Under the pieces are notes generated by a model, which was given only the letters and a program-made list of their open reading frames with translations, was not told the DNA's origin and did no database searches. From contig NZ_BBZK01000010.1 in the NCBI RefSeq assembly GCF_001748085.1, positions 1 to 64,000 of the forward strand: a DNA stretch of 64,000 nucleotides, given 5' to 3'. This document shows, piece by piece, positions 3,483 through 64,000 of this stretch. Made by a program: the position numbers and the translations under genes. The stretch is from Streptomyces sp. TP-A0874. GTDB lineage: Bacteria > Actinomycetota > Actinomycetes > Streptomycetales > Streptomycetaceae. The number at the start of each line of letters is the position of its first letter. Within the stretch, counting starts at the first letter, position 1.

Positions 3483-3541
3483 CGGAATGTCGCTCCTCCG
3501 CACGAGGCCGGTGATGGTCGAAGGCTATCTGGCCAACGGCT

Positions 3542-4987
3542 TCAGGCCACGCGAGGGTGCGGCGTGCCGCGCCGGGCGGCTGACAGCAGTCCCCGCACCG
3601 AAGCCGCCGCGCCGAGGGCCAGCAGCGCCGCCGCCACCGACATCCCCAGCACCCCGCTGAGCGGCAGCGCGATCCCGATCGCCCCGCCGGCCACCCAGGA
3701 CATCTGCAGCAGCGTCTCGGAACGGGCGAACGCCGAGGTGCGCACCTGCTCGGGCACGTCCCGCTGGATCAGCGCGTCCAGGGACAGCTTGCCCAGCGCC
3801 TGTGAAAGACCGGCCACCCCGGCGACCCCCGCCAGCGCCGGGGCGCTGAACAGCGCGGCCGCCGAGACGGTGGCGCCGAGCGCGATGCCCAGCACCGTCG
3901 CGATGATCGCTTCCGGGCCGCGGGACTTCAGCCAGGCGCCGGTCGCCGTGCCGAGCGCGTTGCCGACCCCGGCCGCCACCCCGACCACACCCAGCGAGAC
4001 GGCGGCGCTCTGGTTCCCGATCGGGTGCTCGCGGAGCAGGAAGGCCAGGAAGAAGATGAGGAAGCCGGAGAGGCAGCGGAGCGCGGCGTTGGCCTGCAGC
4101 CCGTGCAGCACGGCCGGTCCGACGGTCCGCAGCCCGGGCTTCCGGGGCCGCGGAAGCCCGCCCCCGCGGCGGCGTACGAGGAAGCGGCGCCGTCCCGGAC
4201 CGCCGTAGCTGGCGCTCCGCCGCCCGCCACGGGCGCCGAGGCCGCCCCGCGGTTCGGGGCTCTCCTCCGAGGCCCCGGCGGCGCCGATGCCGAGCCCGAA
4301 CCTGGCCTTCGCCTCCCCCTTCGCGGAGTCCACCGTCGGCGGCAGCGAGAAGGAGAGCAGCATGCCGGCGAGGAAGACCGCGCACGCCCCGTAGAGCGGC
4401 CAGCCGGGCCCCACCGACTGCAGACCCACCCCGATCGGGGCGGCCAGACCGGTGGCGAGCAGGCCGCTGAGCGTCACCCGGGAGTTCGCTTTCACCAACG
4501 AGAACCGCGGCGGCAGCAGCCGCGGCACCACCGCGGAGCGCACCACCCCGTAGGCCTTGGAGGCGACCAGCACGCCCAACGCCGCCGGGTACAGCTCCAG
4601 ACTCCCGGTCGCGACCGCCGCCGACATGGTGAGCGCCAGCACCGCCCGGGTCAGCATCGCGCCCGCCATCGCGGCCCGCCGACCGTGCGGCACCCGGTCC
4701 AGCAGTGGCCCGACCACCGGGGCGAGCAGGGTGAACGGGGCCATGGTGACCGCGAGGTAGAGCGCCACCCTGCCCCGGGCCTCGTCGGTCGGTACGGAGA
4801 AGAAGACCGTGGAGGCGAGCGCGATGGTGATCATCATGTCGCCCGCGGAGTTCACCGCGTGCAGTTCGATCAGCTTGCCCAGACCACTCTCACCGGCGCC
4901 GTGGGCGTGCGTCGCCCGGCGGATGCCGCGCGCCGTCGCCGTGAACGGCAACTGGGCCGCCCGGCACACCCCCTTCAACGCCGACAT
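3542..4987 (-). CDS. MFS transporter
   Basis: A 481-residue multi-pass membrane protein of the major facilitator superfamily. After a basic N terminus it has successive hydrophobic segments, a loop rich in basic residues (LLDRVPHGRRAAMAG) resembling the cytoplasmic loop-2 motif, and a long charged central loop (roughly residues 220-290, Gly/Arg/Ser-rich) between the two six-helix halves. No substrate can be inferred; drug or metabolite efflux is the usual guess for this subgroup. It is transcribed toward the lipoprotein and mqn genes with 59 bp between them and may head that unit. It is divergent from the DUF3027 gene across a 439-bp gap. Confidence 0.8.
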   Translation of the reverse strand: MSALKGVCRAAQLPFTATARGIRRATHAHGAGESGLGKLIELHAVNSAGDMMITIALASTVFFSVPTDEARGRVALYLAVTMAPFTLLAPVVGPLLDRVPHGRRAAMAGAMLTRAVLALTMSAAVATGSLELYPAALGVLVASKAYGVVRSAVVPRLLPPRFSLVKANSRVTLSGLLATGLAAPIGVGLQSVGPGWPLYGACAVFLAGMLLSFSLPPTVDSAKGEAKARFGLGIGAAGASEESPEPRGGLGARGGRRSASYGGPGRRRFLVRRRGGGLPRPRKPGLRTVGPAVLHGLQANAALRCLSGFLIFFLAFLLREHPIGNQSAAVSLGVVGVAAGVGNALGTATGAWLKSRGPEAIIATVLGIALGATVSAAALFSAPALAGVAGVAGLSQALGKLSLDALIQRDVPEQVRTSAFARSETLLQMSWVAGGAIGIALPLSGVLGMSVAAALLALGAAASVRGLLSAARRGTPHPRVA

Positions 4988-5426
4988 CGAACACCTCGAG
5001 CCCCCCGGCGTGTGGAACCCGCGGTTCCCACGTCGGGGCGCTTGCCCCGGGAGGGCCAGTGCGACCAGTCGGATGTCACTCCGTCATACTGCCTCAACCT
5101 GGGTGAGAGATGGCAGTTAGCCCGGATACCGGTGATTACCGTCACCGGGGTGGCGGACGCCTCCGGTGCCCGGGCGGGTAGGGCGGGTAGGACGGGTGGA
5201 GGGATGAAGGTAGCGTTCCCCACGCGCCACCGGGGCATGTCCTCCGCGTAGCTTTCGGACGAACAGCCACCGGCCGGCGCATCTGTTCGTGATCCAGCGC
5301 AATGGTTCCCGTGCAAACGGGGCCGGACCGGTCGGGCACGGGCGTCGACGCGGTCCGCTGGTCCGCTCCGTCCGCGGCCTCCCCGGCTGGCCCAGCTGTG
5401 GACGGGGTAGGAGAGAATCGATTCTT
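4988..5426. other. Divergent intergenic region (MFS / DUF3027)
   Basis: A 439-bp gap between divergent genes, presumably holding both promoters. The clearest structure is an interrupted palindrome, CCGGTGA-N6-TCACCGG, at 5129-5148. A second imperfect dyad around 5017-5035 (GTGGAACCC/GGTTCCCAC) is nearer the MFS start. A minus-strand reading frame through here looks coding-like in places, but I see no ribosome site and do not call it. Confidence 0.4.
5129..5148. promoter_or_regulatory. Interrupted palindrome, candidate operator
   Basis: CCGGTGA TTACCG TCACCGG: seven-base perfect arms with a six-base spacer, placed between the divergent MFS and DUF3027 genes. The size and symmetry suit a dimeric repressor site. 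No regulator gene lies adjacent, so the binding protein is unknown. Confidence 0.3.
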
Positions 5427-6314
5427 GTGAGTGCTGCGACGATGCGAAGCCGTACACCTGACCGCCAGTGCGCCGAAGCGGTCGATCTCGCCCGCTCCGC
5501 GGCGGTGGAGGCCGCGGGGGAGGCGGCCGTGGGCGAACACCTGGGCGTGGTCGCCGAGGGCGACCGGGTCGTCACGCACTTCTTCGCCAGTCGGGAGCGC
5601 GCCTACCGGGGCTGGCGCTGGGCGGTCACCGTCGCCCGCGCCTCCCGCGCCAGGGTCGTCACCCTGGACGAGACGGTGCTGCTCCCCGGCGACGAGGCGC
5701 TGCTCGCCCCCGAGTGGGTGCCCTGGAGCGAGCGGCTGCGCCCGGGGGACCTGGGCCCCGGAGACCTGCTGCCCACCCGGGCGGAAGACCCCCGGTTGGA
5801 GCCCGGTTTCTCCGGAGAGGACACCCCGCCGCCGAACTCCGCCGTCTCCGAGGAGATGGAGGAGCTCGTCGAGGCCGAGGACGCCGAGGTCACCGAAGGC
5901 CCACCGGCGGCGCTCCCCACGGCCCCCACGACCGGCAGCATCGCCGCCGTAGCCGACGAACTGGGCATGGGCCGGGCCAGGGTGCTCTCCCGCTACGGGC
6001 TGCGGCTGGCCGCCGACCGCTGGGAAGCCGCCTACGGAGCCCAGACGGCCATGGCGCAGGCGGCGCCGGCACCCTGTGTGAGCTGCGGCTTCCTGGTGCC
6101 GCTGGCCGGCTCGCTGCGGCAGGCCTTCGGGGTCTGCGCCAACGAGTTCAGCCCGGCCGACGGCCGGGTGGTGTCGCTGGCCTACGGCTGCGGCGGCCAC
6201 TCGGAGGCGGCGGTCATGCCGAAGACGCCGCAGCCGGCCCCGCCGGTGATCGACGAGACCCGGGTCGACACCCTCCAGCTCCGCGCCGACCCGGCGGACA
6301 CCGCGGCCGAGTAG
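5427..6314 (+). CDS. DUF3027 domain-containing protein
   Basis: A 295-residue soluble protein of an actinobacteria-restricted family of unknown function. The GTG at 5427 is preferred because GGAGAG lies about 10 bases upstream; the open frame extends further to 5289 without a convincing site. Recognisable parts are the segment VVTHFFASRERAYRGWRWAVTV, the downstream WVPWSERLRPGDLGPGDLLP, an acidic middle (about residues 135-165), and a C-terminal CVSCGF...GVCANEF cysteine pattern that could bind a metal. It is followed, after the 6433-6598 element, by the sacsin-like ATPase on the same strand. The same pairing is recalled from other Streptomyces. Confidence 0.82.
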   Translation: MSAATMRSRTPDRQCAEAVDLARSAAVEAAGEAAVGEHLGVVAEGDRVVTHFFASRERAYRGWRWAVTVARASRARVVTLDETVLLPGDEALLAPEWVPWSERLRPGDLGPGDLLPTRAEDPRLEPGFSGEDTPPPNSAVSEEMEELVEAEDAEVTEGPPAALPTAPTTGSIAAVADELGMGRARVLSRYGLRLAADRWEAAYGAQTAMAQAAPAPCVSCGFLVPLAGSLRQAFGVCANEFSPADGRVVSLAYGCGGHSEAAVMPKTPQPAPPVIDETRVDTLQLRADPADTAAE

Positions 6315-6432
6315 CGGCGGAACGCCCCGGTCAGCCCCCCGGCCCACCTCGTCCCCCGTCCACCGCCCGTGCCCGCGGCCGCCCCGGCAGAGACCGGATG
6401 TGCCGGGGCGGCGCGGTGGGGTACGCGTCCTC

Positions 6433-6598
6433 AGAAGCTGTTGTCCCACCTCGGTTCGGATCAGGGCGAGGTGTCCGGGGCTGCCGAATCCAAGGCGGAG
6501 GAGGAAGTCGACGCGGAGCGTCGGCGACCCCGACGACAACGCCGGAGGCGGCGGTGCCGGACACCTCGGGCCCGGGCCGGGGTGGGACAACAGCTTCT
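6433..6598. mobile_element. Second MITE-like element with 18-bp inverted ends
   Basis: AGAAGCTGTTGTCCCACC (6433-6450) is the exact reverse complement of 6581-6598, giving a 166-bp unit. Inside, GAGGTGTCCGG (near 6469) pairs with CCGGACACCTC (near 6557), so the single strand could fold end to end. There is no open frame of its own. The right end is followed by AG, forming CTAG (6597-6600), and the left flank is TCAG. Size and the CTAG junction resemble the element at 1-164, although the inverted-repeat sequences differ. It sits 67 bp upstream of the next gene's start and may carry or disrupt its promoter. Confidence 0.6.
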
Positions 6599-6664
6599 AG
6601 GCGGTACGTTCGGCGCTGTAGGCACCGCAGCGGCTGGTGCGCGGGCCGGAGAAGGAGACGAGAC

Positions 6665-9600
6665 GTGAGTGGCACGGCGATGGTGCGGGCGACCACCGGC
6701 GGGGAGGACCCGTTCGGCACGGCGCGGCTGCGGCGCGGCGTGCTGGACGCCTGGGCCGCCTCCCCCGCGCGCTTCCGGGAGGACGCGAACGCCGAGGAGG
6801 AACTGGCCCTCGGCGGTTACCGGGACCGGCTCGTGGTCGAGCTGGCCCAGAACGCGGCCGACGCCGCCTCCCGGGCCGGGGTGCCCGGCCGGCTCCGGCT
6901 GACCTTCCACCCCGCCAGCCAGGAGGCCCCCGCCGTCCTGGCGGCCGTCAACACCGGCGCCCCGCTGGACGAGCCGGGGGTCGAGTCGCTCTCCACCCTG
7001 CGGGCCTCCGCCAAGCGGGACGAGGCCGGCGGCCGACGGGAGGCGGTCGTGGGACGCTTCGGCATCGGTTTCTCGGCCGTGCTCGCGGTCAGCGACGAGC
7101 CCGCCGTGGTCAGCCGCAGCGGAGGCGTCCGCTGGTCGCTGGCCGAGGCCCGGGAGTTCGCCGCGGCGGCCGCCGACGGAAGCCCGGGGCTCGCCGAGGA
7201 ACTCCGCCGCCGCGACGGCAACGTGCCGCTGCTGCGGCTCCCGCTGCCCGCCGAGGGGGCCGCCCCCGTCGGCTACGACACCGCGGTGGTCCTCCCGCTG
7301 CGCGACGGCGCGGCGGTCGACCTCGTGGACCGGCTGCTGTCCGCGATCGACGACGCCCTGCTGCTCACCCTCCCTGGGCTGTCCGAGGTGATCGTGGAGA
7401 CGCCGGACGGCGTCCGTACGCTGAGCCGCCGTCAGGACGGCCCGGACGTGGTGATCGAGGACAGCGACCACGGCGCCACCCGGTGGCGGACCGCGTCCGC
7501 CGGCGGACGGCTGGACCCGGCGCTGCTGACCGGCCGCCCCGTCGAGGAGCGGCTGCGGCCCGGATGGTCGGTCACCTGGGCCCTGCCGGTCGGCCGGGAC
7601 GGCGCCCCCGGCCGTGCCGACACCGCGCCGGTGCTGCACGCCCCCACCCCCACGGACGAGCCGCTGGGCCTGCCCGGTCTGCTGATCGCCACGTTCCCGC
7701 TGGAGCCCACCCGGCGCCACATCGAGCCCGGTCCGCTCGCGGACTACCTGACGGCCCGGGCCGCGGAGGTCTACGTCTCGCTGCTGCGCGACTGGGAGCC
7801 GGTGGGCACCGGCACCGTCGACCTCGTGCCCGGACCGCTCGGCCGGGGCGAGCTGGACGGCGAGCTGCGCGCCCAGGTGCTGCGGCTGCTGCCGTCCGTC
7901 CCGTTCCTCCCGGCGGCGGCCCCCGCCCAGGGCCCCGCTGAGGAACCCGCGGAGACCGCCGGCGAACCGCCGACCGGCGGCCTGGCCGGCTCCTGGGACG
8001 GGGAGGCCCTCACCGCCGGCTGGGAGAGCCGGCGGCGCGCGCTCAAACCCACCGAGGCGGAACTCGTCGAGGGCGCCGGCGCCGAGACCGTCGCGGTGCT
8101 CGCCGAGATCTTCCCCGGCCTGCTGCCGGCCGGTCTGGAACGCCGCCCCGAACTCCGCTCGCTCGGTGTCGCAAGGGTGCCGCTGGGGGAGGCCATCGAC
8201 CGGCTCGCCGGGGTCGAGCGGGAACCCGACTGGTGGCGGCGGCTCTACGACAGCCTCTCCGGCACCGACCCCGACCGCCTCAGCGGCCTCCCGGTGCCGC
8301 TGGCCGATGGCCGCACCACCATCGGCCCGCGGCAGGTCCTGCTGCCGCTGCCGGGCAGCGCCCCGGCCCCGGAGGACTCCCCCAACGCCACCACCCTGAC
8401 CCGTCTGGGCCTCAAGGTCGCGCACCCCGACGCCGCCCACCCGCTCCTGGAGAAGCTCGGCGCCACCCCCGCCTCGCCCCGCGCCGTGCTCACCAGCCCC
8501 CAGGTGCGGGCGGCCGTCGCCGACTCCCTCGAAGGGGAGGAGCTGTGGGACGAGACCACCACCCTGGACCCGGAGGAGCTCGCGGAAACCGTGCTCGCCC
8601 TGGCCCGGGACGCCCAACTCGAGCCGGGCGAGGAGCCCTGGCTCGCCGAACTCGCGCTACCGGACGAGGACGGCGAACTCGCCCCCGCGGGCGAACTCGT
8701 CCTGCCGGGCAGCGCCTTCCAGCGGGTGATCCGCGAGGACGAACTCGCCGCCTGCGACGCGGAGCTCGCCGAGCGGTGGGGCGAGCAGCCGCTCGCCGCC
8801 GTCGGGGTGCTCGCCGACTTCGCGCTGGTGCGCGCCACGGACGTGGTGCTCGACCCGGACGAACTGGAACCGCGCGACAGCGACTTCGCCGAGCCCGACG
8901 ACGCCGGGCTGCTGGACTCGGTGGACGTCTGGTGCGAGGACGTCCTCGACCAGCTGCCGGACACCCCCGTACCACCGGTCGCCACCGAGATCGTCGCCGT
9001 CCGGGACCTCGACCTCGTCGCCGACGACGCCTGGCCGCAGGCGCTCGCCATGCTCGCCCAGCCGCCGCTGCGGGACGCCCTCACCACCCCGGTGCGGGTG
9101 CTGCTGCCCGACGGCACGACCGAGACCGTGCGCCCGTACACCGCCTGGTGGCTGCGCGGGCACCCGGTGCTCGACGGCCGCCGCCCGGCGGGGCTGCGGG
9201 CCGCCGGCGCGGACCCGTTGCTCGCCGGACTCTACGAGGCGGCGGACACCTCCGGCCTCGGCGGGGCCGAGGAATCGGGCAACCGCTTCGACGAGCAGGT
9301 GCTGCGCGCCCTCGGCGTCCGTACCTCGGTGGCCGCGCTGCTCGCCGAGCCGGGCGGCTCCGCGGAGCTGCTGGCCCGGCTCGCCGACCCGGACCGGCCG
9401 GTCACGGCGGCCCAGCTGCACGGCCTCTACAGCGCCCTCGCCGAACTCGACCCGGAGCAGGTCACCCTGCCGGACGAACTGCGCGCCGTGCTGGACGGGG
9501 AACCGCGGGTCGTCGACGCCACGGCCGCGCTGGTGGCCGACGCCCCGGACCTGATGCCCTTCACCGCCGGCCGGCCCCTGCTGCCCGTGCGGCCCGGGGC

Positions 9601-57638: not shown

Positions 57639-57919
57639 GGCCTGGGGGCAGCCGGGCCGCGGAGGGCCCCAGCGCTCTCCCGGTCCGGCCGCGGCGCCCC
57701 CGGCCGACCGGTGCCGAGCGGGCGTCCGCCGTGCTCCGGCGAGCCCGCCGGAGGCTGGGTTACGGTACGCCCGGATCGAGATGTGACACCCCGAATTGGC
57801 CCCGGGTTCGCAACCTCCGCCTCCGCCAGGAACAATCATGTTGCGTCCCGGGGTGGTTCGCGGTGGGACGCTGCACGGGGCTCATACCTTCGAGTCCCGC
57901 ACGGGGAGGTGGCAGGCAA

Positions 57920-60544
57920 GTGGTGGAGCAGCTGACGCAGCACGACCCGAGACGGATCGGGCCCTTCGAGGTCCTCGGCCGACTCGGGGCCGGCGGCATG
58001 GGGCTGGTCTATCTGGCCCGCTCGGCGTCCGGCCGGCGGGTTGCGATCAAGACGGTGCGCACGGAGCTCGCCGAGGACGAGCTGTTCCGGGTCCGCTTCA
58101 CCCGGGAGGTGGAGGCCGCCCGAGCCGTCAGCGGCTTCTACACCGCCGCCGTGGTCGACGCCGACCCCCGGGCCGCGGTGCCCTGGCTGGCCACCGCATA
58201 CGTACCGGCGCCCTCCCTGGAGGAGATCGTCAACGAGTGCGGCCCGATGCCCACCCAGGCCGTCCGCTGGTTGGCCGCCGGGGTCGCCGAAGCCCTCCAG
58301 TCCATCCACGGAGCGGGGCTGGTCCACCGTGACCTGAAGCCGTCCAACGTCCTGGTGGTCGAGGACGGACCGCGAGTGATCGACTTCGGGATCGCCTCCG
58401 GCGTCTCCAACACCCGGCTGACCATGACCAACGTCGCCGTGGGAACCCCCGCGTACATGTCTCCTGAGCAGGCCCGGGACTCCAGCAGCGTCACCGGCGC
58501 CAGCGACATCTTCTCGCTCGGCTCGATGCTGGTGTTCGCCGCGACCGGCCACCCCCCGTTCCACGGCGCCAACCCCGTCGAGACGGTGTTCATGCTGCTC
58601 CGGGAGGAGCCCGACCTCGACGGGCTCCCGGACGACCTGCGGCCGCTCATCGACTCCTGTATGCAGATGGCCACCGAGCAGCGGCCCACCCCCGCCGACC
58701 TCCAGTCGCAGCTCGCGCCGCACCTCTTCTCCTCCGGCGGCGACGACAGCGGCACCGCCTCGGCGTGGTTGCCGGCCGGCGCCGTGGCCCTGATCGAGCG
58801 GCGGCGCGGCGGGCGGAACCGGATCGCGCCGCGCCCCGTCGGCGGGGCGGTGCCCGCCCAGCCGTCCGGCGGCGAGCGGTCGGCGCCCCCGCCCGCCGCG
58901 GCGGGCGGCCCGCCGCACCCCGGGTTCGCCCCGGGCGGCGGTGCGGACTACCGCCCCCGCGAGCCCGAGGTGGTGCACGGTGGGGCGGGCCCTGAGGCCG
59001 GCGGAGGCTTCGGTGTGGACGCGGCGATCGGGCCCGGCCCGGCCGCGATGGGCCGTGGAGCGGGGGTGCACAGCGGGGACCCGCGCGCGGAGGCCGCCAG
59101 CATGGCCTGGGACGGCGCCCCGCGGGGCGGACGCCATGCGGCGCCGGCCCCGCAGCACCAGACCCCCGAGGGGTCGGAGAACTCCGTGCGGCTGCCCGGT
59201 TCACAGGTGCCGATAGGCCCGGGGCCGCGTCCCGCCGACCCCCAGGGCCGGCCGCACTCCGCCGTGGCGACCGGTTGGGTGCGCCCGCCCGGCGGCGCCC
59301 CCGCGGGGCCGCTCGGCGGCGTCGGCCCACCCGGCCCACCCGGCCCTCCCGGGGCGTCCGCCTCGGGCGACGGCCAGACACCCGGTGGGGACCAGCCCGG
59401 TGCGGAGACCGGTCCGGCCCGCTGGCGCCCCTGGCGTTTCCGGATGTCCAACGACGTCTGGGGCACCCCCGCGATCGCCGGCGACCTGGTCTACGTCACC
59501 TCCTTCGAGGTGCACGGCCTGGAGGTGGCGACCGGCCGACGGCGCTTCAAGACCAGGGACGTCGCCTGGGCGATGGCCGTGGCCGACGGGCGGATACACG
59601 GCTCCGACGGGCCGACGCTCTACGCGCTGGACGCGCTGGACAGCCAGGAGCTGTGGCGGCTCAACCTGGACGGCTGGGTGTACTCCCTCAAGGTCGACCG
59701 GGGCACGGTCGTCACCGGCACCCGGGGCGGCGGCGTCCAGGCGTGGGAAGCGGCCACCGGCGAGCAGCTGTGGGAACTGTCCGGCGCACAGAGCGACTTC
59801 GAGACCGCCGACTGCGGCCCCCAGATCCACGACGGCACCGTCTACGTCTGGTCCGACGCCCGGCTCCGCGCGCTGGAGGCCCGGACGGGCACCGAGCGCT
59901 GGTCCTACCCCGTCGGCGACACAGCCTCCTGCGGCGGTGTCCCGCTCCGGCTGCTGACCGCACCGGACGGGGTCGTCTACGTGGCGGCCGGCACCAGGGT
60001 GCTGGCCATCGACATCGCACGCGGGGACGTGCACTGGCGATTCGAGGCGCCGGCCGCCTTCCTCAGCCCGCCGGCTTTCCAGCCCGGACCGGCGGTGACC
60101 GGCGGTGGCGTCTACCTCACCGACTACCTGGGCACCGTCTACGCGCTGGACGCGGCGAACGGTCGGGACCGGTGGCGGATCGCCACCGAGCCGCGCCAGT
60201 CGGTCGAACCCGTGCTCGTCGCCGACGGAGCCGTCCATCTCGGCAGCGGCAAGGCCCTGTACACCCTGGACGCCGTCACCGGTACGCCCAAGTGGCGCTT
60301 CGCCGCCGGGGGCGAGGTGGTCGGTGCGCCGGTGGTCGCGGACGGCCGGGTGCACTTCGGATCCGCGGACCACTGCCTCTACACCCTGGACGCCGACGGC
60401 GGCCAACTGCGCTGGAAACTGGCGACCGGTGGGGAGATCACCGGTACCCCGGTGGTCTCCAACGGCGTGGTGTACGCCTGCAGCAAGGACCGGTGCGTCT
60501 ACGCGCTCGACGCGCTGAAGGGCACCGGACTGGCACGGCGGTAG
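57920..60544 (+). CDS. afsK: AfsK, eukaryotic-type Ser/Thr kinase with propeller sensor
   Basis: An 874-residue kinase. The kinase domain covers about residues 14-275: G-loop [10 protein letters not shown], Lys44 in VAIK, HRD at 136-138 in [13 protein letters not shown] at 155 in VIDFGIA, then [11 protein letters not shown]. Residues about 280-505 are a Pro/Gly/Ala-rich linker. From about 511 a PQQ-type beta-propeller follows with repeated YALDA...W blades ([60 protein letters not shown]). This is AfsK, which autophosphorylates and phosphorylates AfsR to switch on afsS and antibiotic production. It has no obvious transmembrane helix. It is longer than the about 800 residues I recall for S. 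coelicolor AfsK, mainly in the linker. GTG 57920 has GGAGG 11 bases upstream. Confidence 0.9.
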
Positions 60545-60561: not shown

Positions 60562-61257
60562 TCAGGGCTCCCGCCCACCGCCGCCCTCGCCGGGGTCGCG
60601 CCAGGGCGGACCGCCCGAGGTCGGTGGCCGACCGGGCCCCCCGATGCCGTCCCCGCCGGGCTCCTCGGGGCTGGGCCTCCTGGGCGGTTCGCCGTACACC
60701 TCCGGGATGTCGTCGCCGTAGCGTTCGGTGGACGCGCCGTGCGCCGGGCCCGAGTAGTGAGTGTCGCCGTACGGCTCCGGGGGGTAGGGGGCGCCCTCGT
60801 GGCCGCGTCTGCCGCCTCGGCGGTGGCGCGAGCGCCGGAGCGAGCGTCCGCTCATGGAGAGCGCGGCCAGCAGGAGCAGCAGACCGCCGCCAGTGGCCAG
60901 GGCCGCGCCGCTGCCGAGCCCCGGACCGCCGGCGGTCAGATCACCGGAGGCCTGGGCCTGGCGGACCATCCAGAGGATGGTGAACACGAGCACCAGCACC
61001 CCCGCGAGCGCCACCAGCAGCCGGGAGCGGAGGAGCACCCCGACCACCGTGAGCAAGGCCGCGACGCACATCGGAAGGAGCAGCGAGGTCAGCTCGGAGG
61101 CCCCGTGCGTGGTGATGCCCTGGAAGACGTCCTGCAGCCGGATGTCGGTCCCGGTCCGGCCGTTGTACCAGGGGCGGAAGGCACTCCATACGGACGCCAG
61201 CGCTCCGATCAGGGCGAGTACTGAGCCGAACATGTTTCGGAGCACGCCGGTCACCAC
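60562..61257 (-). CDS. Four-helix membrane protein of the afs locus (SCO4424 position)
   Basis: A 231-residue protein with four predicted transmembrane helices in the first about 135 residues: FGSVLALIGALASVWSAF, LTSLLLPMCVAALLTVVGVLL, LLVALAGVLVLVFTILWMV and AALATGGGLLLLLAALSM. The cytoplasmic C-terminal tail of about 95 residues is Pro/Gly/Tyr-rich (HYSGPAHGASTERYGDD). It is convergent with afsK across 17 bp and occupies the position of SCO4424 between afsK and afsS. A membrane partner in AfsK signalling is possible but unproven. The start is uncertain: GTG 61257 is used, while ATG 61233 would begin at MFGSVLALIG. Confidence 0.7.
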   Translation of the reverse strand: MVTGVLRNMFGSVLALIGALASVWSAFRPWYNGRTGTDIRLQDVFQGITTHGASELTSLLLPMCVAALLTVVGVLLRSRLLVALAGVLVLVFTILWMVRQAQASGDLTAGGPGLGSGAALATGGGLLLLLAALSMSGRSLRRSRHRRGGRRGHEGAPYPPEPYGDTHYSGPAHGASTERYGDDIPEVYGEPPRRPSPEEPGGDGIGGPGRPPTSGGPPWRDPGEGGGGREP

Positions 61258-61347: not shown

Positions 61348-61572
61348 CTACCGCAGATCGGCCGGAGCGGTCCCCGCCGGGGGTGTCGCCGTCCTCCCGT
61401 CGACCGGCACGTGGTTGTCCAGCGGTATGTAGCCCCCGCTGCTCGCCCGGCTCTCCACAAGAGCGTGACCCGATCTGCCCGCCTGCTCCGCGGCCCCGGC
61501 CGGGAGCGCGGCGGCCCCCGAAATCCCGATCGCGAGGGCCGTGGTGACGAGAGCGGTCCTACAGCGCGCCAT
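61348..61572 (-). CDS. Small secreted protein with AfsS-like DNHVP motif
   Basis: A 74-residue protein with a classic Sec signal peptide (MARCRTALVTTALAIGISGA... ALPAGA-AEQ, cleavage near residue 27). The mature part is about 47 residues. It contains GGYIPLDNHVPVDG (about residues 46-59), sharing Y-x-x-L-D-N-H-x-P with the repeats of the neighbouring AfsS (YTTLDNHAP). ATG 61572 is preceded by GGAGGAG. It lies downstream of afsS on the same strand, beyond two hairpins, so it is probably a separate transcript. I know of no described function. It may be an exported AfsS paralogue or a peptide signal. Confidence 0.65.
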   Translation of the reverse strand: MARCRTALVTTALAIGISGAAALPAGAAEQAGRSGHALVESRASSGGYIPLDNHVPVDGRTATPPAGTAPADLR

Positions 61573-61662: not shown

Positions 61663-61688
61663 AGGCCAAGCGAAGGAACGCTTGGCCT
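61663..61688. terminator. Hairpin between afsS and the DNHVP gene
   Basis: AGGCCAAGCG (61663-61672) pairs perfectly with CGCTTGGCCT (61679-61688) around AAGGAA, in the 232-bp gap between afsS and the secreted-peptide gene. It may be a second terminator for afsS or a structured leader of the peptide gene. Confidence 0.5.
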
Positions 61689-61731: not shown

Positions 61732-61770
61732 GCGGTCGCGGTGGCTCCCCCTCCGAGCCACCGCGACCGC
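61732..61770 (-). terminator. afsS terminator hairpin
   Basis: GCGGTCGCGGTGGCTC (61732-61747) pairs perfectly with GAGCCACCGCGACCGC (61755-61770), a 16-bp stem with a seven-base loop, 35 bp beyond the afsS stop on the minus strand. Confidence 0.75.
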
Positions 61771-61804: not shown

Positions 61805-62086
61805 CTACCTGGAGCCCTCGCTCGGCGCGTGGTTGTCGAGCGTGGTGTAGCCCTCGTCCCCGTCGGCGGTGGCGGCGCCCTTGCCGGGGCTGGGGGCGTG
61901 GTTGTCCATCGGGCTGATGGGCGCGTGGTTGTCGAGCGTGGTGTAGCCCTCGTCCCCGTCGGCGGTGGCGGCGCCCTTGCCCGGGCTCGGGGCGTGGTTG
62001 TCCCGCGTGCCGATCGGCGCGTGGTTGTCGTCCAGGACCTCGACGTCTTCCTGGGCGACGCCGCTCGAGGTCTCAGCAGTGCTCAT
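61805..62086 (-). CDS. afsS: AfsS, small activator of secondary metabolism (expanded)
   Basis: A 93-residue acidic, unstructured-looking protein made of repeated (L/M/R)DNHAP motifs, five in total. It consists of two 32-residue units, each with two DNHAP motifs and the stretch GKGAATADGDEGYTTL, plus a terminal DNHAPSEGSR. AfsS of S. coelicolor is about 63 residues with TLDNHMP-type repeats and stimulates actinorhodin and undecylprodigiosin production by an unknown mechanism. ATG 62086 has AAGGAG eight bases upstream. The gene lies downstream of afsR on the same strand, with the AfsR-type box about 180 bp upstream. Confidence 0.87.
   Translation of the reverse strand: MSTAETSSGVAQEDVEVLDDNHAPIGTRDNHAPSPGKGAATADGDEGYTTLDNHAPISPMDNHAPSPGKGAATADGDEGYTTLDNHAPSEGSR
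61827..62018. repeat. 96-bp in-frame tandem duplication inside afsS
   Basis: The sequence starting GCGTGGTTGTCGAGCGTGG at 61827 recurs at 61923, with a partial third start at 62019. The period is 96 bp (32 codons). The copies are nearly identical apart from the last about 20 bases, which indicates recent duplication and keeps the reading frame. Confidence 0.85.
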
Positions 62087-62264: not shown

Positions 62265-62286
62265 GCGATAAACGTTCGATGAACGT
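62265..62286 (-). promoter_or_regulatory. AfsR/PhoP-type box upstream of afsS
   Basis: Read on the minus strand, two contiguous 11-bp direct repeats ACGTTCATCGA and ACGTTTATCGC occur at 62286-62276 and 62275-62265, about 180 bp upstream of the afsS start and 97 bp after the afsR stop. Eleven-base direct repeats with GTTCATC-like cores are what PhoP and AfsR bind at the S. coelicolor afsS promoter, where the two compete. No other gene lies in 62087-62382. Confidence 0.65.
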
Positions 62287-62382: not shown

Positions 62383-64000
62383 TCAGGCGGCGATGGCGGG
62401 CGACAGCAGGAGAGTCCTTACCTCCTCAGCCTCACTCGAACCCAGCCGCTCGAAGATCGCCAGGGCCTCCTGCCAGCAGGCGCGAGCCCGGTCGGCCTGG
62501 CCCATCCGCTTCAGCGCCCGGCCCAGCACGGTCAGTACCGTGCCGCGCCGCCACTCGCCACCGATACCGCGGAGCGCGAGTACCTCCTCGGCGTGCGCGG
62601 CGGCCTCCGCAGGGTGGTGCGCGGCGAGGTGCACCTCGGCCAGCCGCAGGTGGGTCATGCCCTCCCAGAGCCGTTGCCGCCCCTCCCGGAAGAGGGCGAG
62701 GGCCTCCCCGAGCCGGGTCAGCGCGTCATCGGGCCGGCCGGCGCTGTTGAGCGCGAGTCCGTGCGCGTAGAGCCCGTTGGCGAGCCGCAGCGGGTTGTCC
62801 ATCTCCTGGTAGATGGCGAGCGCCTGCTCGGTGAGGCCGACCGCCTGGCTGGAGCGGCCGAGGTTGATGTGCACCCGCGCGAGGTTGCAGAGCACGCTCG
62901 CCTCGCCGTTGCGGTTGCCCAGGGCGCGCCAGGCGGTCAGAGCGTGGCCGTAGTGCGCCTCGGCGTCCTCGTTGCGGTTCTCTATGAAGGCGATGATGCC
63001 CCGGTCGTTCGGGGGCCAGGAGGAGGCGACCGGGTCCTCCGTGGCCAACCCCAGCAGCATCGCCGAGCGCGCCTCCTGGTCGGCCTGCTCGTAACGGCCG
63101 GCCATCATGTGGCTGAGGGTCAGGGCGACCCGGGCCCGACCCTCCGCGTGCGCGTCCTCGGCCGCCTGTGCCACCTCCTGCAGGGCGGAGGCGGCCAGCT
63201 CGTACTGGCGGGAGTTGGCGCCGGACTCCGCCAGGTCCTTGGCCGCCATCAGCAGGTCGACCGAGCGCCGCAGCTCGCCCCGGCCGGCGCACTGCCGGGC
63301 ACAGGCCAGCAGGCACTCGGACTCGGCGTAGAGCCACTCCAGCGCGGCCGGCTGGTCGGGGAAGGACAGCCCCGGGTGGCGGGTCGGCTCCAGGTGGTCC
63401 ACCAGCCGGTCGCCCGGCCGCTCCAGCGCGTACACCTCGGTGGCCGTCGCCAGGTAGAAGTCGAGCATCCGGGAGAGGGCGGCGTCCCGCTCGGCCAGCG
63501 ACTGCTCGTCCCGCTCGGCACAGGCGCGGGCGTAGAGCCGGACGAGGTCGTGGAAGCGGTACCGCCCGGGGGGCCGCGGACTCCAGCAGGGAGATGTCGA
63601 CGAGCGACTCCAGGACCTCCTCCGTCTCGTGCGGGTCGAGGTCCAGCAGGGCGGCCGCCGTGGCGAGCGAGATGTCGGGGCCGTCCGCCAGCCCCAGCAG
63701 CCGGAAGGCGCGCGCCTGGTGCGGCTCCAACTGCCCGTACCCCAACTCGAAGGTGGCCTCGACGGCGAGGTCGCCGACCTGGAGCTCGTCGAGCCGGCGC
63801 CGTTCGTCCGCGAGCTTCTCGGCCAGCACCGAGACCGTCCAGGTACGGCGGGAGGCCAGCCGGGAGGCGGCGATCCGGATCGCCAGCGGCAGGAACCCGC
63901 AGGCCGCCACGACGTCCAGGGAGGCGTCCCGTTCGGCGGCCACCCGCTCGGCGCCGACTATCTTCGTGAAGAGCTGGAGCGCCTCCCCGGGGCTCATCAC
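62383..64000 (-). pseudogene. afsR: afsR (SARP-NB-ARC-TPR regulator), 3' part, frameshifted
   Basis: The minus strand encodes the C-terminal half of AfsR. It has NB-ARC sequence (CGFLPLAIRIAASRL, FRLLGLADGPDISLATAAALL, LESLVDISLLES) followed by the winged-helix and TPR region (RYRFHDLVRLYARAC, then MLDFYLATATEVYALERPGDR, and repeats such as EASVLCNLARVHINLGRSSQAV). The 5' SARP DNA-binding part is beyond the window. The frame breaks at a run of six G (plus strand 63568-63573). Upstream of it the frame ends in nonsense Arg/Pro-rich text, and downstream the AfsR frame resumes one base off. Removing one base restores AAPGRYRFHDLVRLYARA. It is either a true +1 frameshift or a sequencing error. Confidence 0.8.

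Follow-up and report, generated by a model that had tools for sequence, protein, structure and literature searches.

A predicted secreted protein family sharing the AfsS motif in Streptomyces, and covariation of that motif with the TPR domain of AfsR

The window analyzed here is a stretch of 64,000 nucleotides from Streptomyces sp. TP-A0874 (contig NZ_BBZK01000010.1, positions 1 to 64,000 of the forward strand). At its end, the minus strand carries, in order, the C-terminal part of afsR, afsS, a small gene designated sec, and a membrane-protein gene, all of which are faced by afsK on the plus strand. The features are as follows:

57731-60544, plus strand: afsK
60562-61257, minus strand: membrane-protein gene between sec and afsK
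61348..61572 (stop included), minus strand: sec, encoding Sec, a small, predicted secreted protein of 74 aa; open reading frame with the same place and strand in other species
61405..61419, minus strand: DNHVP motif of Sec (residues 52-56, within IPLDNHVP), from the sequence and a genome-wide pattern
61489..61572, minus strand: predicted signal peptide of Sec, residues 1-28, ending in LPAGAA before EQAG; cleavage site placed by eye with a crude hydrophobicity/AxA rule
61663..61688, minus strand: perfect 10-bp hairpin with a 6-base loop, terminator-like, between afsS and sec
61736..61766, minus strand: perfect 12-bp hairpin immediately 3' of afsS
61805..62086, minus strand: afsS (93 aa, five DNHAP copies), encoding the proposed ligand of the AfsR TPR domain
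62267..62286, minus strand: afs box ACGTTCATCGAACGTTTATC upstream of afsS, matching the published repeats
62383..63468, minus strand: TPR-containing C-terminal part of AfsR (the 361-aa fragment that was modeled and analyzed for covariation)
63004..63006, minus strand: codon for D155 of the AfsR fragment (column 124), which covaries with residue x of the DxH motif
63238..63240, minus strand: codon for K77 of the AfsR fragment (column 46), which also covaries with x

AfsR is a member of the STAND family with a SARP DNA-binding part and a C-terminal TPR sensor, and it activates afsS through the afs box (PMC10936776). It "remains elusive" whether the AfsR sensor is bound by an inducer (PMC10936776). 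The mode of action of AfsS is given as "as yet unknown" (PMC2267785, PMC10972967), and the protein is described as having no obvious DNA-binding site (PMC2267785). The afs box of the window matches the CGTT(T/C)ATCGNN repeats quoted in PMC10972967, and a box of this kind (at least 14 of 20 bases) was found in all 137 loci with an AfsS call. Two of the five DNHAP copies of the window AfsS lie within YTTLDNHAP. The protein scores below the curated cut-off of 60 bits for NCBIfam model NF053616 (RegAfsSStmc; E=1.5e-9, 38.3 bits) and is otherwise AfsS-like in its position behind afsR, its repeats, and its afs box. Stems of at least 7 bp occur in the afsS-sec gap of 10/51 loci, compared with 5/51 after shuffling.

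The afsR reading frame is broken in the window, with overlapping open frames at 62729-65320 and 62386-63957 (minus strand) that each hold part of the protein; the open stretch is 524 aa long, whereas most relatives have about 1,000. Pfam TPR_12 matches the window's AfsR frame (E=4.6e-22). The break, recorded for the window (62386-63957 and 62729-64000, minus strand) and for L423, lies near a C/G run. It could represent an assembly error or indel, or else gene decay; if real, the circuit discussed below may be dead in Streptomyces sp. TP-A0874. The membrane protein shows only a weak Pfam similarity (Trp_oprn_chp, 19.2 bits, below the cut-off), and its gene is distant from afsR in some species, for example by about 16 kb in genome G129.

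An initial annotation of this DNA had described a 74-residue gene with a signal peptide, a ribosome site, and an AfsS-type motif, located 0.3 kb from afsS, and this description was confirmed. The open reading frame begins with ATG and encodes MARCRTALVTTALAIGISGAAALPAGAA-EQAG...GGYIPLDNHVPVDG..., is preceded by a good ribosome site (GGCAAGGACAACGCACGGAGGAGACAGC-ATG), and has a coding-like GC content of 0.72/0.68/0.85 by codon position. A gap of 232 nt separates the afsS stop from the sec start, so that 0.3 kb was a fair estimate. The DNA pattern CTBGACAACCACNNSCC occurs only three times in the whole 5.1-Mb genome, in each case within the afs locus.

Plain searches gave little for Sec. Pfam and NCBIfam returned nothing useful, NF053616 gave no match up to E=1, and the best similarity match outside its own genome among 101 genomes had an E-value of 0.0027. 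A pattern scan of the whole genome collection yielded 589 matches and no relative. Such searches missed the family because only a signal peptide and the motif are common to its members. The family came to light when the DNA behind the afsR genes of other Streptomyces was read. At 22 of 90 loci of this kind, the window included, afsS is followed on the same strand by a short protein with a signal peptide; fewer than 500 bases were available behind afsR at three of the 90. These first loci were the AfsR matches closest to that of the window, and for this reason the S. coelicolor clade was under-sampled in the earlier comparisons.

A profile built from 21 members matched 56 of 392 genomes at E<=1e-9, of which 21 had supplied the profile and 35 had not. 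The strong matches adjoin afsR in 54 of the 56 genomes. At E<=0.001, some match is present in 307 of the 392 genomes, but the weak ones, which appear to be ordinary signal peptides, were not counted. Among further named loci, sec is present in 19/59, with carriers including S. globisporus, S. netropsis, S. hiroshimensis, S. hygroscopicus, S. lydicus, and S. griseocarneus. The initial annotation had looked to conservation at this position in several species for support, and the relatives behind afsS supply it. Since an AfsS-type motif occurs on a predicted export signal in many species, it is not an unselected leftover of repeat sequence. It is close to certain that a conserved family of predicted secreted proteins with the AfsS motif exists behind afsS.

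A typical member reads MTRTKKxLxxxAxAxA...ALA up to the predicted cleavage site and DNHxP...PLDNHIP thereafter. The signal peptide is conserved in the family, and the motif often directly follows the cleavage site. Under a strict test that requires this arrangement after an AxA site, 16/87, 2/40, and 20/74 loci of three sets were positive on the afsS strand, compared with 0, 0, and 1 on the opposite strand. The last His lies two residues before the protein end in 23 of 59 secreted proteins, although not in Sec of the window. The latter has one motif copy, well within the mature part, would fail the strict test, and is a divergent family member. Its profile E-value of 2.6e-15 is circular, as Sec was among the profile members, and its assignment to the family is instead based on position, strand, signal peptide, and PLDNHVP. 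Most species examined have no secreted gene, and it is therefore dispensable for the working of AfsR.

The repeats of AfsS vary widely among species and include DNHAP, DNHASG, DDHATG, DGHATG, EGHTPAPP, DRHQS, DHHQPI, NAHVT, NLHVT, and ENHAP. The motif of the secreted protein varies with them, as seen in the AfsS/secreted pairs DRHQS/DRHQT, DHHQPI/DHHAPI, NAHVT/NGHVT, NLHVT/NVHVT, ENHAP/ENHTP, and DDHAT/DDHST. Across 51 pairs, the two proteins agreed on average at 2.73 of 4 motif positions, versus 1.48+-0.11 in shuffled pairs, with none of 20,000 shuffles as high; at position x, agreement was found in 29/51 pairs versus 7.7+-2.4. In this set, duplicates were merged and three loci were left out by hand (L177, L136, and L139), where the AfsS call was the secreted open reading frame itself or the secreted call fell outside the family. 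Eight more were absent for want of an automatic AfsS call (L101, L110, L179, L182, L184, L186, L190, and L195), and some of these fit only in part, such as DNHMP versus ENHLP in L110 and DSTRP versus DSHTP in L179.

Since shuffles ignore kinship, the secreted motif was also compared with the AfsS of relatives. At an AfsR identity of 0.6-0.7, the species' own AfsS fit better in 44 species and worse in five. The corresponding counts were 13 versus 2 at 0.70-0.75, 5 versus 1 at 0.75-0.80, and 5 versus 1 at 0.80-0.85, and above 0.85 all comparisons were ties. Codon identity at shared residues was 0.794 within a locus versus 0.801 between loci; as it is no higher within loci, DNA copying (gene conversion) is not the cause of the motif match, and the claim of the initial annotation that the motif had been duplicated from AfsS was not borne out. 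In the window, AfsS (DNHAP), Sec (DNHVP), and AfsR (Asp) all agree. Where the AfsS and secreted residues differ, AfsR follows AfsS in 13/18 pairs, the secreted protein in 3/18, and neither in 2/18; four of the 51 pairs were dropped from this comparison for short AfsR sequences.

Columns of the AfsR TPR domain were also set against the commonest AfsS motif at 114 loci, and the most conspicuous of them was column 124, which corresponds to D155 of the window fragment and aligns with residue 788 of a 993-aa AfsR taken as that of S. coelicolor. With the rule fixed on these loci, the residue was called correctly in 34 of 39 cases in a first held-out set, versus 8.6+-2.5 when shuffled and 11 if Asp was always guessed (40 loci were fetched, and L254 had no AfsS call). 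In a second held-out set of named loci, from which L272, L325, and L328 were missing for the same reason, 55/56 calls were correct, versus 23.6+-2.5 when shuffled and 35 for Asp throughout. This set included five new cases of E with Gln and one of V with Ile.

Across 244 loci with motifs that contain the His, residue x and column 124 pair as follows: N with Asp (98/102), S with Glu (24/28), G with Glu (9/9), D with Asn, Ile, or Thr (18/18), E with Gln (6/6), His with Asp (7/7), M with Ala (7/7), L with Ala (9/10), V with Ile (3/3), T with His, Met, Ile, or Leu (11/11), and A with Leu or Gln (5/5). Judged from the sequences, this pairing is complementary in charge and size. In a comparison of 122 disjoint sister pairs, 12 of the 15 that differ in x also differ in column 124, versus 4 of the 107 that share x. 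On the tree, x changed 33 times, and column 124 changed along with it in 14 of these cases (p 2e-10) and column 46 in 15 (p 2e-12); motif position +1 goes with columns 168, 130, and 131, and +2 with columns 279 and 240. No matching change was seen for 19 of the changes in x and 16 of those in column 124, several of them within one class, such as S to G with Glu, L to M with Ala, and N to H with Asp.

By mutual information, only column 124 (z 12.1) and column 189 (z 13.2, with motif position 0) exceeded the 95% level of ordinary columns (9.7), and no column did so for motif positions -2, +1, and +2. Columns 131 and 276 predicted little or no better than a guess of the commonest residue in the held-out sets, as was the case for columns 46 and 130 in the second set. 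Column 154, a candidate partner of motif position -2, performed well at first and was then rejected: it gave 29/39 in the first held-out set, where shuffles gave 23.9+-1.8 with a maximum of 29, and in the second held-out set a constant guess of N gave the same 53/56.

The predicted model of the window AfsR TPR fragment is helical and confident (pLDDT 94.1, pTM 0.88). The TPR register was set by hand from conserved alanines, and the geometry of the putative pocket rests on it. By this register, column 124 falls at position 6 of a TPR repeat, columns 130 and 131 at positions 12 and 13, columns 240 and 279 at position 2, and columns 87 and 90 at positions 9 and 12 of the preceding repeat. These helix-A positions usually line the concave groove of TPR proteins. 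The top partner columns, taken as a union, hold 9 of 23 groove positions, versus 30/205 expected from the background (p 0.0019). In a fold search, the TPR domain of eukaryotic LGN (Z 27.5) ranked above the RRNPP receptors among the matches (8rsv, Z 23.8; 4gyo, 23.4; 5dbk, 22.8; 4i9c, 22.5; 4gpk, 22.3). Because TPR folds are generic and LGN outranks these receptors, the fold does not decide the matter. The AfsR-type protein of locus L345 has NB-ARC and TPR domains.

The N-Asp rule fails in the S. coelicolor clade, where x=N is found alongside Asn in 3 loci that have the motif His and 12 that do not. In this clade, the His is often replaced (DNAMP, DNGMP, DNPMP, DTNMP), and in the S. coelicolor-like loci L149, L254, L194, L211, and L349-L374 it is lost or moved (DHNMP, DTNMP, DNGMP, DNPMP, NNAMP). 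One locus, with an AfsR identical over 200 aa to PDB entries 8k60/8jke, has DNHMP with Asn; it is attributed to S. coelicolor from the length of 993 residues and from PMC10936776. A search of the 1,482 bases following afsR at this locus revealed no sec-type gene, which fits the initial annotation, by which the gene is not known between SCO4424 and afsS in S. coelicolor. Where a secreted protein is present in the S. coelicolor-like clade, its motif and that of AfsS are still alike (DNGMP with DNPMP or DNSMP; DNPMP with DNSMP). At 24 loci from Streptomycetaceae genera other than Streptomyces, column 124 is never acidic: 22 have Leu, one has Val, and one has Met. Sixteen of these loci with a readable repeat open reading frame have motifs such as N-W-H, N-I-Y, N-F-H, and N-Q-Y. 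Such loci fit a greasy pocket for a greasy residue, although they are largely one clade and represent few independent events.

Coevolution of this kind makes it highly probable that the AfsS motif binds the TPR domain of AfsR. The reading favored here, with a probability of roughly 0.55, is that AfsS would be the ligand of the AfsR sensor and the secreted protein an exported, species-matched copy of it, probably a pheromone-like propeptide. That the secreted form reaches AfsR as a signal has somewhat less than an even chance. A full scheme of species-coded peptide signaling around AfsR, with the motif displayed inside the cell by AfsS and outside by the secreted propeptide and the code held mainly in one groove residue, is tentative. 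The initial annotation had proposed a peptide signal read by the propeller of AfsK; the notion of a signal is supported in spirit, whereas the reader is more likely the TPR domain of AfsR itself, given that it coevolves with the motif. Among the findings here, where covariation was examined for AfsR, nothing points to the AfsK propeller.

Under the favored reading, AfsR bound at the afs box would switch on afsS, and AfsS would fold back on AfsR, with several of its motifs occupying the TPR groove at once as a multivalent feedback ligand. Such occupancy would release or stabilize the STAND switch of AfsR. A ligand that lifts AfsR inhibition is plausible, since the NOD and TPR parts of AfsR inhibit its activity in vitro (PMC10936776). 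Outside the cell, the exported protein would offer the same motif as a species-specific message about neighbors of the same kind, and a putative motif peptide might re-enter the cell by analogy with RRNPP systems. Extra afsS can act without afsR, which counts against this reading. According to a review (PMC6988585), AfsS binds upstream of the act and red regulators, which is an alternative to its acting on AfsR. In the literature covered by the search, outside of which many journals lie, no published report of the secreted family or of AfsS-AfsR binding was found.

Another use of the signal peptide can be envisioned. The cytoplasmic pre-protein could bind AfsR and be removed by export, such that a slow or jammed Sec pathway would inform AfsR through its accumulation. 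This scheme requires neither an importer nor a returning peptide, and it is consistent with a motif that matches a cytoplasmic reader, with the conserved signal peptide, and with the frequent placement of the motif right after the cleavage site. It nevertheless leaves the repeats at both ends of the mature part superfluous (including those 23/59 proteins that end two residues after the last His), no precedent for it was found in the secreted family in this analysis, and it is considered unlikely. The secreted protein might also, as the initial annotation suggested, be an extracellular decoy, or the ligand of a different receptor, such as the AfsK propeller or a surface protein. The tendency of AfsR to follow AfsS and not Sec in discordant pairs (13/18) favors this idea, as does the existence of secreted relatives away from afsR, one of them beside an nSTAND1-WD40 protein. 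On the other side, the motif of Sec fits the AfsS of the same species more closely than it fits the AfsS of relatives. Such a role is considered improbable.

A third explanation is extracellular binding of Cu or Ni by a mature N-terminus of the form NH2-X-X-His (ATCUN geometry). A His is possible at mature position 3 after an AxA site in 51 of 59 secreted proteins, although this count is inflated by the several AxA sites allowed, and position 5 scores 47. The S. coelicolor-like clade, in which mature starts such as DNPMP and DNSMP have no His and are AfsS-like all the same, led to this being dropped as a general explanation. Sec of the window has no His at position 3, and the covariation with AfsS and AfsR would be left unexplained; metal binding is considered very improbable. 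Finally, the neighboring positions and repetitive nature of afsS and sec could suggest shared descent or gene conversion, with sec a recent copy of the afsS repeats and the match without function, but this is largely refuted and scarcely credible given that codon identity at shared residues shows no sign of it, the spacers between motifs differ, and the match takes in AfsR residues that are complementary rather than similar.

With respect to known systems, Sec resembles AfsS (NF053616) in its DxHxP-type motif, which matches species by species, and in its gene being directly behind afsS. Unlike AfsS, it carries a signal peptide and does not match NF053616, and its motif copies are less numerous and less regular. 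Nor is its gene preceded by an afs box: a matrix built from afsS sites detected one before sec in 0/51 loci and before afsS in 51/51. The afsR locus resembles RRNPP systems (Rap-Phr, PlcR-PapR, NprR-NprX) in that a cytoplasmic TPR regulator is accompanied by a gene for a small secreted protein a short distance downstream, and the secreted family shares with them a strong species specificity. RRNPP signals are the C-terminal 5-10 residues of the propeptide, which an oligopeptide permease imports and which bind in the TPR groove; in the secreted family, a motif at the extreme C-terminus is seen in part of the members (23/59), and for AfsR it is the covariation that would suggest groove binding. 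A secreted propeptide gene adjoins the receptor gene in only part of the species, however, and is often missing. AfsR itself is a SARP-STAND protein as opposed to an HTH-TPR or Rap-type receptor, and a second, cytoplasmic ligand (AfsS) is proposed for it. The AfsR-secreted pair may work like an RRNPP pair, by analogy, but is not filed as one on account of its SARP-STAND receptor.

MalT and GutR are, like AfsR with its TPR sensor, STAND regulators, and their inducers are small sugars (PMC10936776) as opposed to the peptide motif proposed for AfsR. NosP is a SARP said to answer to peptidyl ligands and offers a precedent for AfsR, although its ligand derives from an antibiotic precursor peptide and not from a dedicated secreted or AfsS-type protein (as cited in PMC10972967). 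If the full scheme of species-coded peptide signaling is correct, AfsR would provide actinobacteria with their first RRNPP-like system on a SARP-STAND receptor, and the action of AfsS would be explained. Both AfsS action and AfsR sensing become directly testable, by means of short synthetic peptides and paired mutants, through a code that links the two proteins at the level of residues. Were the secreted form a signal, a cheap, species-specific peptide could switch antibiotic production, with its motif readable straight from the genome.

A few loci depart from the usual arrangement. In L206 (G372:C59), a secreted relative containing ALANNHGTV lies away from afsR at about 3519-3647 (minus strand), back to back with the gene for the nSTAND1-WD40 protein, another STAND-type switch, at 3781-6741 (plus strand); this genome has additional profile matches. 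Secreted relatives away from afsR also occur in L198 (G081:C468; ..AENHSSVAPLDNHQTVVPPERHQ..) and L185 (G097:C408; ..ADQHVSVTPQDSRITGTPQENHATVTPLDAHVTG..), with ordinary-looking neighbors. In L196 (G051), two secreted motif proteins are encoded in tandem behind afsS, one of 67 aa (DDHGG/DDHSG) and the other of 96 aa with five copies of DDHST.
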